This document shows, one piece after another, positions 30,492 through 37,256 of a stretch of 64,000 nt of DNA (the stretch's first letter is position 1; every line of letters starts with the position of its first letter). The notes beneath the pieces were generated by a model. The model was not told where the DNA came from, searched no databases, and saw only the letters and a program-made list of their open reading frames with translations. Origin of the DNA: Halobacteriovorax sp. GB3 (GTDB lineage: Bacteria; Bdellovibrionota; Bacteriovoracia; Bacteriovoracales; Bacteriovoracaceae); the NCBI RefSeq assembly GCF_028649655.1, contig NZ_JAQSLN010000003.1:1178001-1242000 (forward strand), written 5' to 3'. The position numbers and the translations under genes are program-made.

Positions 30492-31667
30492 TTAGATCAA
30501 ATCACTTAACGTATTGATAAAACTATACTTCTTAAGATTCATCTCGTCATACTCCCCTTCGAGGTCACTTTTTAAAGTAATTCCTCCGCCAGCAGAGTAA
30601 ATGAGAGTTTTTGAATTAAAACAGATCTCACTTGAACGAATATTAATTGATGCTGCTTGAAGAGATCCATTTTGAATGATGGTTGATCCGGTGTAGAAGC
30701 CTCTTTTTTCTCCTTCAATATCTTTTATTAATGAGACGACCTTCTTCTTTGGCGCTCCCGTAATACTTCCACCCGGAAAGAGAGCAACGAGAACATCTAA
30801 AAGATTTGTCTTTGGACTGAGTTCAACTGCAATTAAAGAGTATTGATGAAGAATATTTGGAACTTTTAATGGCGCCTTCTTTTTAATGACTTTTGAATAA
30901 GGAGAAGAGATGCGAGAGAGATCATTTCTTATAAGATCAGTGATCATATAAAGCTCTCCCTGATTTTTCTGACAAGAGCTAAGCTTATGCCATTGCTCAT
31001 CAGTTACGGCACCTTCACACTTCAAACTTCCCTTTATCGGCATACTCCAAAGAGATAACTTATGCTCAAAAGATCGTGCTTGAAAGAGACACTCAGGAGA
31101 ATTACTTAAATAGAGCTTATTCCAAAGAGGGATAAATGTAGCGTGTGCATAAGGGGCCCTTGCCTCTTTATTTTTCCATAGTGAGCTGTAGAATTCTTCG
31201 ACTTTATACTCACTAAAGCTATAGACAGAAGGAAACGTTAAATTGATTTGATAGCAATCTCCCCTTTGTAAAGAGTCTTGCACTCGATCAAAGGCCTTCT
31301 TATACCTACTCTTAGAAACAGATGAAACTTCACTAAGCTTTAAGGCCTTTCCAATAGGACTAAACTTTTTAACCACAAGCTCTCGCTTGTACTCAATATC
31401 AATAGCGAGAAGTTCATTTGAAAAGCTCTTAAGCTCTATCAACTCTCCGAGTTCGTAAAATACATGAGTCACACGCTTTTTTTGAGTGCTATCAAAAGTT
31501 CTCTTAGAAAGTTCATGAAACCACTGTCCCAAAGGAGCAATCGTTTTCTCACCTGTAATTAAATCTACTCGGTGATCTTGATAATAGGCAAACGCACTCT
31601 TGGCCTCATGTAGAATCTGAAATTGATCACCAACAGGATAGATCGTATGCAGCTCTCTAAAAATCAT
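30492..31667 (-). CDS. pabB: Aminodeoxychorismate synthase component I / chorismate-binding enzyme
   Basis: 391 residues, about 60 short of E. coli PabB because the N-terminal domain is reduced. Chorismate-binding core motifs are GDCYQINLTFP, MITDLIRNDLSRIS, PGGSITGAPKKKVV and the C-terminal AGGGITLKSDLEGEYDEMNLK. It makes 4-amino-4-deoxychorismate for folate with a glutamine amidotransferase partner that is not in the window. Anthranilate synthase is a less likely alternative given length and context. It shares one base with the dnaB stop (TAATG). Confidence 0.82.
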   Translation of the reverse strand: MIFRELHTIYPVGDQFQILHEAKSAFAYYQDHRVDLITGEKTIAPLGQWFHELSKRTFDSTQKKRVTHVFYELGELIELKSFSNELLAIDIEYKRELVVKKFSPIGKALKLSEVSSVSKSRYKKAFDRVQDSLQRGDCYQINLTFPSVYSFSEYKVEEFYSSLWKNKEARAPYAHATFIPLWNKLYLSNSPECLFQARSFEHKLSLWSMPIKGSLKCEGAVTDEQWHKLSSCQKNQGELYMITDLIRNDLSRISSPYSKVIKKKAPLKVPNILHQYSLIAVELSPKTNLLDVLVALFPGGSITGAPKKKVVSLIKDIEGEKRGFYTGSTIIQNGSLQAASINIRSSEICFNSKTLIYSAGGGITLKSDLEGEYDEMNLKKYSFINTLSDLI

Positions 31668-33016
31668 TACTGAACGTTTGGTGGTTCATCTTGGCGAGAG
31701 ATATTTTCAAAACTCGTATGAGCACCAACAAAAGCAAGCTTTGCTGTACCAACAGATCCAGCACGGTTTTTCCCGACGATAACTTCGGCGACACCCGGCT
31801 CTTTAGTATTTGGATCGTAGTATTCATCACGATAAACGAACATAACGATGTCGGCATCCTGCTCAATGGCACCAGATTCACGAAGGTCAGATGTGTTTGG
31901 ACGCTTATTTGGTCTCGACTCAACACCGCGGTTTAGCTGCGATAGAGCGATGATTGGGCATCCAAGTTCCTTTGCTAAAGACTTTAACCCACGAGACATT
32001 TCAGAGATCTGCTGTTCACGTGATGTTGTCTTCGTGTGCGGAGTCATAAGTTGAAGGTAATCGATAACAACAAGTGCAATCCCCTGCTCGGCCTTAATCT
32101 TTCGACATTGAGACTGAATATCAAGGAGGTTAATCCCACCATTATCGTTAATATAAATTGGATACTCTTGTAGTTCTTTAACGGCACGACCAATAGAGCG
32201 AAGGTCTGTGTCCAAGAAGTTCTTTTGACGAATTCTCTTAGAGTCAACTTTTGCTCTTTGTGTAAGAAGACGCATTGAAAGTTCCTTTGAAAGCATCTCC
32301 AGAGAGAAGACAACGACAGGAAGCTTCGTTAAACCACAAGCATTTTGCGCGATATTAAGGGCCAAGGCCGTCTTTCCCATGGCCGGACGTGCGGCAAGGA
32401 CAATCAGCTGACCAGGTTGCATCCCAAGAAGAAGCTTATCAAGTTCACCATAACCAGTAGGTACACCCTGAACCTCACCAGGCTTTCTTGAAGTATCTTC
32501 CATCTCTTTGAGGTTTTCTTTTAAACAAGTATTAAGCTTAACAACTTGATTGGCCTTCGCTTCATTTGTTAAGTTGAAAAAGCTTGATTCGACATCTTCA
32601 AAAAACTCGTCGATATCCCCTGTAAAATTAAGCCCCATCTCACTTACTCTTTGAGCCGTTCTAACGATCTCTCGTAGTGAAGACTTATCTTTTACAACTT
32701 TTCCATAGTGATAAATATTGGCAGCTGAAACTTGATCTTCAACGATTTCAAGAACAGCACCATTGCCACCAATCTCTTCGAGCTTACCTCTGTCTTTTAA
32801 CATTGAACAAACCGTTACATAATCAATTGGTTTATTCGTCGTGGCCAAGTCTGTGATCGCATCAAAGATAATCCCATAAGACGGATGATAAAAATCTTCC
32901 TTCTCAAGCTTTAAGTTTGAGATTTCGTCATAGTTATTTCCATCAATAATTAAACAACCAAGAAGGGATTTCTCGGCCAGTAAATCGTGGGGTAATTCTC
33001 TTGTTGGTGCGTCCAT
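31667..33016 (-). CDS. dnaB: Replicative DNA helicase DnaB
   Basis: 449 residues: N-terminal collar domain (about 1-105) and RecA-like ATPase with Walker A AARPAMGKTALAL (near 205), Walker B ALVVIDYLQLM, and the SREQQISEMSRGLKSLAKEL and DLRESGAIEQDADIV motifs. It is the fork helicase. The order S6/S18, DUF2232, L9, DnaB is the widespread rpsF-dnaB arrangement. pabB follows with a one-base overlap. Confidence 0.96.
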   Translation of the reverse strand: MDAPTRELPHDLLAEKSLLGCLIIDGNNYDEISNLKLEKEDFYHPSYGIIFDAITDLATTNKPIDYVTVCSMLKDRGKLEEIGGNGAVLEIVEDQVSAANIYHYGKVVKDKSSLREIVRTAQRVSEMGLNFTGDIDEFFEDVESSFFNLTNEAKANQVVKLNTCLKENLKEMEDTSRKPGEVQGVPTGYGELDKLLLGMQPGQLIVLAARPAMGKTALALNIAQNACGLTKLPVVVFSLEMLSKELSMRLLTQRAKVDSKRIRQKNFLDTDLRSIGRAVKELQEYPIYINDNGGINLLDIQSQCRKIKAEQGIALVVIDYLQLMTPHTKTTSREQQISEMSRGLKSLAKELGCPIIALSQLNRGVESRPNKRPNTSDLRESGAIEQDADIVMFVYRDEYYDPNTKEPGVAEVIVGKNRAGSVGTAKLAFVGAHTSFENISRQDEPPNVQ

Positions 33017-33153: not shown

Positions 33154-33771
33154 TTAGTAGCTTCTAAGAATTTTGTTTGCTTCTTCTTTGAGTTTTTCTT
33201 CTTCAGTAAGTTCTTTCTTTTCCTCACCTTCGACAGCATTCTCAGCATCAGCAGCTTTCTTAGCAGCTTCTGCAGCTTTCGCAGCAGCAGCTTCTTCAGC
33301 TTTCTTCTTCATTTCTTCAGCTTGCTTTGGATCCATTTTAACTTCTACAGTGAAGTTAGCTTCAACATCGCTAAAGAATTTAGCTTTAACGGTGAAAGTT
33401 CCAGCTGTCTTGATTGGAGTTTCAAGAGTAAGTGTTCTCTTTTCAACTTCTAGATCAGACTTCGCTAGCTCAAGAGAAAGTTCGTTTGTTGTAACAGAAC
33501 CAAAAAGTTTCCCGTTAGCACCAACTTTCTTGATTAGTTCAAGCTTAAGACCTTCGAGCTTAGATGCAACTGCTTTAGCAGCATCTTTTTCAGCAGCGAT
33601 TTTATTCGCTAGCATTTTCTCGTTGTGAGCTTGTTGTTTTTTATTCGACTCATCCGCAACAACTGCAAAGCTGTTTGGGATAAGGTAATTTCTTGCATAA
33701 CCTGCAGAAACGTTAACGATTTCCCCAACGTTTCCTAAAGTTTTTACCTTTTCAGTAAGAATGACTTTCAT
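33154..33771 (-). CDS. rplI: Ribosomal protein bL9 with an extended Ala/Glu/Lys-rich C-terminus
   Basis: 205 residues against about 149 in E. coli. Residues 1-148 are normal L9: MKVILTEKVKTLGNVG start, the SAGYARNYLIP loop, a long connecting helix and the C-terminal rRNA-binding domain. Residues about 149-205 are an added low-complexity helix rich in Ala, Glu and Lys. L9 binds the base of the L1 stalk and helps frame maintenance. It overlaps the DUF2232 gene by four bases. Confidence 0.94.
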   Translation of the reverse strand: MKVILTEKVKTLGNVGEIVNVSAGYARNYLIPNSFAVVADESNKKQQAHNEKMLANKIAAEKDAAKAVASKLEGLKLELIKKVGANGKLFGSVTTNELSLELAKSDLEVEKRTLTLETPIKTAGTFTVKAKFFSDVEANFTVEVKMDPKQAEEMKKKAEEAAAAKAAEAAKKAADAENAVEGEEKKELTEEEKLKEEANKILRSY

Positions 33772-34805
33772 AAGATATCTCCTTCACTTCTACTTTTTTT
33801 TTTCAATTTAGTCTCAAAATCGAAAAAGAGATCTAAGACGCCGACTAGTGCAATCATCTTGTAACCTAAGAAGATGGTAAACACTGTAAGTGCCGTTCTA
33901 AGAAATCCTCTAAACCCTAACCAATCGAGAGACGCCATAAAAACGCCAAACCCTTGGAAGAAATAAAAAACGCCAAGACTATAAGTAATATTAAATCCAA
34001 TAACTTCTGCTAGTGGGTGGATGTACTCTCCAGCAACAATCATCACCATCCCCGCAAGGAGACCGTAAATCATAAAGTCAGGAGCTTTGAAGCTAACAAA
34101 ATCCTTAAGAGTATAAGGATAATTGTGAGTTTCTTTCCAAATCACAACATTGCGAAGAACTAGATATAATGTAAGCCACATCGAAAAGAAGACACCTACA
34201 AACATCGCTGTAAATGACCACTCAAGAAGTGTCTTAACTACCATTTGTGGATCGTTGAGAATCGAGCTTAACGCTCTGGCCTCTTGTCCACCAGCATCTA
34301 ATCTTTCTTTTACTTCTGGTCTTTGAAGAGCTTCTTCAAAACTTTTCGTTACAAAAGTTTCAATCTGATTAACGAGAGTAAATTCAGAGGCAATCGATAG
34401 AACAATAACCCCTCCTGCAATGAGAAGAAGTAAAGCACTCGACCACTGAATTAACCCTTTAACCGGCTCTTGTCTCTTAACAATTACTCGTGATGCGAAA
34501 AACCCAAAAACACTGGCAACAAAATATACAGAAGCTTGCGACAGCAGAAAATCGGCTCCAGGGATAAGCTTTGAAGCTGTAACCATGGCCACCATAATTA
34601 ATGCCGATAGCGAACCTGTATACTTAACTCCATAAAGGAGAAAAGAAATTGCCATTGGAATTGGAGCAAACAGAGATAATGGCCCAAAGCTACTTAAAGC
34701 TAGGGTAACAATGGAAAGAAAGATAAGTTTACCAAACGTTAGTTTCCCAACGATAAACTCGGTATTTCCCTTCACTGAATGTTTGTAATCTCCGCCTCTA
34801 TTCAC
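33768..34805 (-). CDS. DUF2232 (YybS-like) membrane protein
   Basis: 345 residues with about eight membrane helices and the DUF2232 C-terminal pattern (a helix pair with FFFQGFGVFMASLDWLG and a final LTVFTIFLGYKM segment). A periplasmic loop of about 60 residues lies between helices (about 150-200). DUF2232 genes are often found between rpsR and rplI in other phyla, which supports the assignment. Function unknown. It starts with GTG and follows the S6-S18 gene by 20 bases. Confidence 0.82.
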   Translation of the reverse strand: MNRGGDYKHSVKGNTEFIVGKLTFGKLIFLSIVTLALSSFGPLSLFAPIPMAISFLLYGVKYTGSLSALIMVAMVTASKLIPGADFLLSQASVYFVASVFGFFASRVIVKRQEPVKGLIQWSSALLLLIAGGVIVLSIASEFTLVNQIETFVTKSFEEALQRPEVKERLDAGGQEARALSSILNDPQMVVKTLLEWSFTAMFVGVFFSMWLTLYLVLRNVVIWKETHNYPYTLKDFVSFKAPDFMIYGLLAGMVMIVAGEYIHPLAEVIGFNITYSLGVFYFFQGFGVFMASLDWLGFRGFLRTALTVFTIFLGYKMIALVGVLDLFFDFETKLKKKSRSEGDIL

Positions 34806-34825: not shown

Positions 34826-35449
34826 TTATTCAGAAAAAGTGCTTCTCATGTGAGAAACAACACCAATGTTACGTGCTCTCTTGATCGCAGCTTGAGCAAA
34901 TCTTTGGTGCTTTCTAGATACACCAGAAACTCTTGCTGGAGAGATTTTTCCAAATTCGTTGATTAGCCAGTTGAAAGTCTTTGGATCTTTCCAATCAGCC
35001 TTGATGCTCTTAGCTGTGAACCAACAGTTCTTTCTTCTTGCGAATTTCTTTCTGTCTTTTTCTGCATCTGAGTCTTGATCTAGATCGTCAAGAACTGAAC
35101 CATTGTGGTTCTTAGAGAATGGAGACTTGAATTTTTTTACAAGAGCTTCACCGTCTGCAGCTACGTCTGAAAGCTTAACGATCATTGTTTTAAGAATGTC
35201 TTCGTTAATTTTGAACTTTCTGTTTAGCTCAACGTTAGCTTCTGCATTACCTGTGTAGATGAAATAAAGGTAGTGACCTGTCTTTACACCTTTTGAAGTT
35301 GCTTGTGCGAAAGTTTTGTTTCCCCAGTCATCAGACAGAAGAACTTCACCGTCGAACGATTTTGCTACTTCTTCAACCATAGTTTGTAGAGCCTTGATTC
35401 CTTCTTCACCAAGGTTCGACTTAGCCACTAGGGCCAACTCATAAATCAT
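34826..35449 (-). CDS. Fused ribosomal proteins bS6 and bS18 in one polypeptide
   Basis: 207 residues in one uninterrupted frame. Residues 1-100 are S6 (MIYELALVAKS opening, GHYLYFIYTG strand, FKINEDILKTMIVKL ending). Residues about 134-203 are S18, with FARRKNCWFTAKSIKADWKD, GKISPARVSGVSRKHQRF and AAIKRARNIGVV, all expected S18 core segments. Between them is a 33-residue acidic/polar linker with no in-frame ATG, GTG or TTG, so S18 cannot be started separately. S6 and S18 normally bind each other on the 30S platform. The ssb/priB gene often found between rpsF and rpsR is missing. The AGGAGG ribosome-binding site follows a structured leader. Confidence 0.94.
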   Translation of the reverse strand: MIYELALVAKSNLGEEGIKALQTMVEEVAKSFDGEVLLSDDWGNKTFAQATSKGVKTGHYLYFIYTGNAEANVELNRKFKINEDILKTMIVKLSDVAADGEALVKKFKSPFSKNHNGSVLDDLDQDSDAEKDRKKFARRKNCWFTAKSIKADWKDPKTFNWLINEFGKISPARVSGVSRKHQRFAQAAIKRARNIGVVSHMRSTFSE

Positions 35450-35462
35450 ACTTTCCTCCTGG

Positions 35463-35496
35463 ACTTGCGGCTAACTTCCCTATGAAGCTAGCGAGT
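35463..35496 (-). promoter_or_regulatory. Candidate S6:S18 autoregulatory leader element
   Basis: In the leader of the S6-S18 gene the minus strand can fold as CUAGCUUC (35484-35491) with GAAGUUAG (35471-35478) around a five-base loop. An unpaired CCG (35468-35470) sits on the 3' side and a short outer stem pairs 35492-35496 with 35463-35467 (one mismatch). A stem with a 3' CCG bulge is the recognised shape of the S6:S18 mRNA binding site. The AGGAGG ribosome-binding site begins two bases further on. Confidence 0.65.
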
Positions 35497-35681: not shown

Positions 35682-37256
35682 TTAGTCGAAAATTTCGTAC
35701 TGCTCTATGTGGTAGCTATTTTCAGATCGAATCTGAAGAGTTTTTCCAAAGGCTTCTTCAAGCGTCTCAATGAGGTCGAGATCATCGCCACAAAGTCGAG
35801 CTGTCACCTCAGGATGGGCAAAGATCGAAACGCGACTAGACTTAGATTTTTTAAGAACTTTTGTTAACTCTCTTACAAGCTCGTAGCAAACAGTCAGAGT
35901 TGATTTAACCTGACCTGTCCCCTCACAATAAGGACAAGGCTCACACATGAGTCTTGTTAAAGTATCTCTGGTTCTCTTTCTTGTCATCTCTACAAGACCA
36001 AGTTCAGAGATTGGAAGAACCTTCGTTTTAGCTCGGTCTTTTTTAAGGGCCTCAAGAAGGTTTGAATAAACCATCTCTCTGTGCTCTTCTTTTTCCATAT
36101 CAATGAAGTCGATAATGATGAGACCACCGCAGTTACGTAGACGTAACTGATAAGCAATTTCTTTTACCGCTTCTAAATTTGTTCTTAGAATCGTCTCTTC
36201 AAGAGTTTTTCTTCCAACAAATTTCCCTGTGTTTACATCAACAGAAACCAGGGCCTCTGTTTGATCAATATTGAGAGATCCACCAGAGCGAAGATAAACC
36301 TTATTTGAGATGGCCCTTTCTAGTTCTAAGTCGAGACCAAATTTCTCAAAGAGCGGAAGGTCTTCTTCATAGATTCTGACCTTACCCTTGAGACCTGGAA
36401 GATATTTGCCAATGAACTTTTCTAGTTCTTTAAAGTTCTCATTATCATCAACATAAATATTTGAAACATCTTCGTCTGTAATATCGCGAAGGACTCTTTG
36501 AATGAAAGAGAGGTCTTTATAAAGACAGGCCGGAGACTTAGCAGAGCTTTCCTTTCCCTGTACTTCTTTCCAAATCTTTACCAACATATCGTAGTCAGCT
36601 TTAAGAGTTTTCTGCCCCTGACCTTCGGCCACGGTTCTAGCGATCATCCCCTTTCCTTCTGGTTTAATTTTTTCCAGAATCTCTTTAAGACGATCTCTCT
36701 CATCTTCATCTTCAATTCGACGAGAAACACCTGTGTGCTCGATATATGGCATATAAACAACATGACGACCAGCTAAGGTGATGTGACGAGTAACCCTTGG
36801 TCCCTTCGTTGAAATAGGTTCCTTGGCCACCTGAACGAGAATCTCGTCGCCTTCCTTTAAAAAGGATTCAATCGTTGCTTCATCAGGACGAAAGCGCATA
36901 TCAACAGCATCAGAAAAAGTTGAAAGCTCATCAGGGATAATTTTCCCTTTGCGCTTATCTTCTTCTTCACGAATTTTTTGGGCCTTCTCCTGCATTTGTC
37001 TTTGCTCTTCAAGTGTTGGCATATAGGCATCGTCAACATAGAGAAAAGCTGCTTTTTCATAGCCAATATCAACAAAGGCCGACTGCATTCCAGGAAGAAC
37101 TCTTAAGACTCTCCCCTTATAAATATTCCCAACACAAGGATGATCACCACCATCCTCTTTACTTCTTTCCATGAGGTAATCAACGATTTCCCCATTATCA
37201 AGAAGGGCCGCTCGGCATTCTCCGAGGGTTTGATTGATAACGAGATCTTTAGACAT
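35682..37256 (-). CDS. rng: Ribonuclease G/E family endoribonuclease
   Basis: 524 residues, RNase G-like in length, without the long RNase E scaffold tail. It has an S1 RNA-binding domain (about 37-125), the 5'-sensor/DNase I-like catalytic region with Asp residues in VSVDVNTGKFVG and IIIDFIDM, and the zinc-link cysteines in CEPCPYCEGTG. It processes rRNA and initiates mRNA decay. It lies 24 bases after nupC in the same direction, with AAGGAAA before its start. Confidence 0.93.
   Translation of the reverse strand: MSKDLVINQTLGECRAALLDNGEIVDYLMERSKEDGGDHPCVGNIYKGRVLRVLPGMQSAFVDIGYEKAAFLYVDDAYMPTLEEQRQMQEKAQKIREEEDKRKGKIIPDELSTFSDAVDMRFRPDEATIESFLKEGDEILVQVAKEPISTKGPRVTRHITLAGRHVVYMPYIEHTGVSRRIEDEDERDRLKEILEKIKPEGKGMIARTVAEGQGQKTLKADYDMLVKIWKEVQGKESSAKSPACLYKDLSFIQRVLRDITDEDVSNIYVDDNENFKELEKFIGKYLPGLKGKVRIYEEDLPLFEKFGLDLELERAISNKVYLRSGGSLNIDQTEALVSVDVNTGKFVGRKTLEETILRTNLEAVKEIAYQLRLRNCGGLIIIDFIDMEKEEHREMVYSNLLEALKKDRAKTKVLPISELGLVEMTRKRTRDTLTRLMCEPCPYCEGTGQVKSTLTVCYELVRELTKVLKKSKSSRVSIFAHPEVTARLCGDDLDLIETLEEAFGKTLQIRSENSYHIEQYEIFD

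Follow-up and report, generated by a model that had tools for sequence, protein, structure and literature searches.

A single gene of Halobacteriovorax sp. GB3 encodes ribosomal proteins bS6 and bS18 as one polypeptide, and this S6-S18 fusion, far from being a curiosity of a single genome, is the rule in the family Bacteriovoracaceae. In the window (the whole stretch of 64,000 nucleotides that was analysed), the fused rpsF-rpsR gene occupies positions 34826..35449 of the minus strand, with its ATG at 35449-35447 and its TAA at 34828-34826, and encodes a protein of 207 amino acids; the plus strand across 34826-35449 contains many stops. The bS6 part comprises residues 1-100 (35150..35449, minus strand), and matches Pfam Ribosomal_S6 (PF01250) at residues 3-92 (E 2.5e-18, 66.5 bits against a cut-off of 27) and the NCBIfam equivalog TIGR00166 at residues 1-93 (45.9 bits, cut-off 42.9). 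The bS18 part comprises residues 134-203 (34841..35050, minus strand), and matches Pfam Ribosomal_S18 (PF01084) at residues 149-196 (E 9.4e-15, 54.9 bits against a cut-off of 21) and TIGR00165 at residues 136-199 (53.5 bits, cut-off 38.75). An initial annotation, made from the sequence of the window, had described one open frame holding a full S6, a linker and a full S18, and had proposed looking for separate rpsF and rpsR genes elsewhere. The frame was confirmed, on the minus strand, by family matches above cut-off for both halves, and profile searches of the 3.62 Mb source genome (99.79% complete) found no separate rpsF or rpsR, the only additional S18 match scoring 14 bits, below the cut-off. 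As the sole copy in the genome, the S6 half must serve as the ribosomal S6.

The order to which the source genome belongs, represented here by the single family Bacteriovoracaceae, was surveyed in 129 genomes, of which 110, including the source genome, carry an uninterrupted S6-to-S18 frame. Three further genomes (G013, G110 and G120) are consistent with the fusion and are interrupted only by contig ends, five (G019, G058, G059, G060 and G064) have two adjacent separate genes, and one (G071) has both halves in one frame with a single in-frame TAA in the linker; the remaining 10 of the 129 gave no usable match, and all of these are at most 89% complete. Because the joined frame recurs in 110 genomes of the order, chance is excluded and the fusion is a genuine gene fusion. 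An alignment-based scan of named genomes found it in Bacteriovorax sp. BSW11_IV and DB6_IX, in Halobacteriovorax marinus, in metagenome-assembled genomes (MAGs) labelled Bacteriovorax stolpii and in many Bacteriovoracaceae MAGs, which places the family as Bacteriovoracaceae. Family-model searches of 46 relatives detected exactly one S6 and one S18 above the cut-off in each, with no extra separate copy, and the two domains are joined or, in G071, parted by one stop in 41 of the 46; the relatives with one S6 and one S18 include a single-contig genome of 4.15 Mb (G104). The suggestion that an assembly or sequencing error erased a stop codon, or that the gene is a degraded copy, is refuted by these comparative data, as 110 genomes of the order share the in-frame fusion, the named records that carry it include non-MAG strain genomes, and no other S6 or S18 is present. 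A second, unrelated-looking S6 gene was seen on a short MAG contig (L041, G074:C102), and probably stems from contamination by a different member of the phylum.

Outside Bacteriovoracaceae, S6 and S18 are separate among the matches listed in a survey of 369 genomes of the phylum; in G300 the two genes lie side by side in one reading frame but are divided by a stop and a new start. The search for S6-S18 fusions across Bdellovibrionota that the initial annotation had called for thus returned 110 of 129 genomes within the order and, among the matches listed for the other families, the separate genes that it had called the normal state. The annotation had also professed no awareness of a detailed description of such a fusion, and likewise none was found in the open-access literature searched; automated databases probably hold the S6-S18 architecture without comment. 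Overall, the initial annotation was correct on the facts and largely so on their meaning.

The gene lies between neighbours on the same (minus) strand. A ribonuclease E/G-type protein, named by sequence resemblance, is encoded upstream (35682..37256), and downstream are the gene for a membrane protein that we take from gene order to be DUF2232-like (33768..34805, its position conserved in relatives), rplI (bL9, 33154..33771) and, after it, dnaB (31667-33016), the order of the latter two also being conserved in relatives. The bL9 protein carries a C-terminal extension of approximately 55 residues rich in Ala, Glu and Lys. The absence of ssb/priB between S6 and S18, to which the initial annotation had drawn attention, is real but was not part of the fusion event, because in other families of the phylum rpsR already lies directly 3′ of rpsF. 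At three loci from such families (L099, L100 and L104, in G304, G302 and G303, respectively) the interval between rpsF and the following gene yielded no S18, and rpsR seems to have moved or diverged there.

Comparison of 45 aligned fusions with the separate genes, together with coding-type substitutions, was used to dissect the interdomain stretch (residues 101-133; 35051..35149, minus strand), which consists of the ancestral S6 C-terminal tail, to approximately residue 111, followed by a variable acidic linker in which the join lies (approximately residues 112-128). The motif KxYKxPxSK, present before the join in most fusions, also ends the S6 protein of separate-gene relatives (LIKNYKSPFANN in G058, LVKNYKCPLQKNS in G060 and LVKNYRSPFIPRERDADMELE in G064), and xKDRRxFxRKxSCWF, after the join, is also the start of S18 in those relatives, where it follows an acidic N-terminal extension. 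As both flanks match tail ends of the separate proteins, the linker looks like the old S6 C-terminal tail joined to the old S18 N-terminal tail. Across 109 fusions the interdomain stretch is 28 to 44 residues long, and the frame is preserved in all of them. Among 35 separate close pairs, residues 112-133 show 68, 73 and 262 changes at codon positions 1, 2 and 3, respectively; of the codon differences, 191 are synonymous and 124 nonsynonymous, a substitution pattern which indicates that the linker is translated and under coding constraint.

Two ways of obtaining a free S18 bear on the linker. The protein could also be made separately from an internal start, and an in-frame ATG, GTG or TTG is indeed found in the linker region of 54 of 109 fusions; the other 55 have none, however, and a Shine-Dalgarno-like sequence precedes such a codon in just three, which means that internal initiation is not a general solution for making separate S18. 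The source gene, for which the initial annotation had rightly noted the lack of an in-frame start in the linker, also lacks the near-cognates CTG, ATT, ATC and ATA, and we regard this route as very improbable. Post-translational cleavage is the only serious rival: the fusion would be translated as one chain and then cut in the linker, so that the mature ribosome would contain S6 and S18 as two ordinary proteins, as with eukaryotic ubiquitin-ribosomal protein fusions. The central part of the linker does vary in length and sequence, like a disposable spacer, but no shared cleavage motif is evident in this variable part, the linker is under coding constraint, and, as S6 and S18 are neighbours, a free linker would not need to be cut. 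Cleavage is accordingly judged unlikely, and an uncut chain is preferred.

The history of the fusion was examined with trees of DnaB, L9, the RNase and the DUF2232 neighbour, with a mixture-model tree and AU tests computed on complete rows. Fused genomes cluster in these trees far above chance. A basal position of the separate-gene lineages, seen in the first concatenated tree, was not retained, the mixture model leaving the base of the family without resolution. Constraining the fused genomes, G071 and G064 to a single clade fits at least as well as the unconstrained tree (p-AU 0.53), and the test rejects a fused clade that leaves these two genomes out (p-AU 0.0037), these p values serving as a guide since the groups tested were named after the trees had been seen. 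The simplest reading is a single fusion early in the history of the family, not shared by G019 and G058-G060, after which contiguity was lost in G064, G071 or both. The distribution of the leader described below agrees with this single-fusion history, as G071 has the fused-type leader, G064 retains the CCAGGAG half and G058-G060 have neither half; the upstream sequence of G019 ends at a contig end after 37 bases.

Both exceptions have features of their own. G064 (L037 / L073), a 1.6 Mb genome that falls among the fused members of the family, encodes rpsF and rpsR as two genes, with its own start codon and a degenerate leader, and is probably a case of secondary gene fission; that it manages with separate genes means that the fusion is not irreversible. 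The linker of G071 (L039 / L076) reads GAT ATC TAA AAA GAC where its relative G127 has D-I-E-K-D, the TAA standing at the Glu position. No start codon lies between this TAA and the S18 core, which is the only S18 of the genome, and the TAA may reflect a sequencing error, a genuine nonsense codon that is read through, or re-initiation.

Structure prediction of the fusion gave a mean pLDDT of 88.5 and a pTM of 0.83, with S6 predicted confidently and S18 moderately to well; the pTM suggests a defined mutual arrangement of the two domains. Foldseek matched the first half of the model to bS6 of solved ribosomes (e.g. 8buu_f), with a best TM-score to the target of 0.92, and the bS18 half matched PDB bS18 chains by sequence (e.g. 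5nd8_r); no solved chain covering both halves was among the PDB structure and sequence matches listed. A third protein of the 30S platform, bS21, lies beside S6 and S18, and two genes for it (rpsU) were seen in the source genome (G000:C4:21099-21257 and G000:C1:108602-108760). S6 and S18 heterodimerise before joining the 30S subunit and binding rRNA (PMC4647458), which makes a tether structurally reasonable and supports the initial annotation, where the pair had been called a natural heterodimer. A linker of about 33 residues should be long enough to connect any two neighbours on the platform.

Upstream of the fused gene, a 5′ leader element (35455..35495, minus strand) was defined by clade conservation, covariation and fold. 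It consists of CUCG, a hairpin termed H2 (35470-35492) and CCAGGAGG, which ends in the Shine-Dalgarno sequence. RNAalifold predicts six pairs in H2, five of them with compensatory changes, and the source leader folded as a single sequence is modestly stable relative to shuffled sequences (z -1.5). The leader motif pair is present in 38 of 45 fused genes and in one of 14 unfused genes, that of G071. A CC that is invariant or nearly so adjoins GGAG, and is likened to the known CCG site by position and not by a common alignment. A scan of the locus against Rfam gave chance matches alone and no curated S6:S18 leader family. In Escherichia coli, the rpsF leader contains a hairpin H2, two conserved cytosines and a Shine-Dalgarno sequence within a second stem, and rpsF is repressed through this leader by the S6:S18 complex and by neither protein alone (PMC4647458). 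By this likeness, the leader of the fused gene is probably an S6:S18 autoregulatory element.

We consider it highly probable that Bacteriovoracaceae possess an obligate covalent S6-S18, the product of an ancient fusion, which acts as an intramolecular dimer filling both sites on the 30S subunit and probably represses its own mRNA. One polypeptide would fold into two domains, S6 and S18, and these would pair with each other in the same chain, as the structural model suggests, joined by a flexible linker derived from the old tails. The protein would thereby fill the two adjacent sites on the 30S platform, so that the separate step in which S6 finds S18 would be gone and the 1:1 ratio fixed, and it would probably repress its own translation by binding the leader hairpin that adjoins the Shine-Dalgarno sequence. 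A more detailed version, to which we lean with less assurance, holds that an uncut covalent S6-S18 is present family-wide in every Bacteriovoracaceae 30S subunit, that the derived leader overlapping the Shine-Dalgarno sequence senses the dimer, that G064 was re-split and that G071 possibly uses readthrough or re-initiation.

Enzymes that modify the tails of the two proteins show no clear relation to the fusion. Loss of RimK (TIGR00768) and RimI (TIGR01575) in the fused clade was considered and rejected, as no clear pattern emerged: most fused genomes have strong RimK-family genes, and the RimI-like acetyltransferases are so numerous that they could not be distinguished. The source genome itself encodes a RimK-family ligase (G000:C3:905266-906120, E 2e-85) despite having no free S6 C-terminus. 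Several fusions, including that of the source genome, end in Glu. The persistence of the RimK-family ligase in most fused genomes counts against the proposed explanation, as the fusion gives no account of it.

Few genes are as highly conserved as those for ribosomal proteins, and to our knowledge it is rare for two such proteins to be directly fused in a free-living bacterium. Each half of the present protein is an ordinary member of a known family; new are the covalent union, its family-wide conservation and the loss of the separate genes. Throughout a family of predatory-type bacteria, a classic bimolecular assembly step, that of S6 with S18, would have become intramolecular, and the fusion offers a natural experiment on the order of assembly, the control of stoichiometry and autoregulation, in which the effect of the tether can be compared directly with separate-gene relatives in the same family and with a probably re-split lineage. 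It is also a practical marker for Bacteriovoracaceae.

Compared with the separate bS6 and bS18 of E. coli (rpsF-priB-rpsR-rplI), the fusion is alike in that both domains score above family cut-offs, rplI lies downstream and the partners are ones that heterodimerise before binding rRNA, but it differs in being one covalent polypeptide with no free S6 C-terminus or S18 N-terminus and in having no priB/ssb between the halves. Each half resembles a single ribosomal protein of the PDB (8buu_f, 5nd8_r) in fold or sequence. The leader shares with the rpsF_leader of E. coli and Bacillus subtilis an H2 upstream of rpsF and, judged by position, may also correspond to it in two conserved cytosines and a Shine-Dalgarno sequence inside the element, but has a derived consensus, CUCG-[H2]-CCAGGAGG, that matches no Rfam family. 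Eukaryotic ubiquitin-ribosomal protein fusions, which are cleaved, likewise produce a ribosomal protein within a fusion, but they join it to a non-ribosomal protein, whereas the Bacteriovoracaceae fusion joins two ribosomal neighbours.
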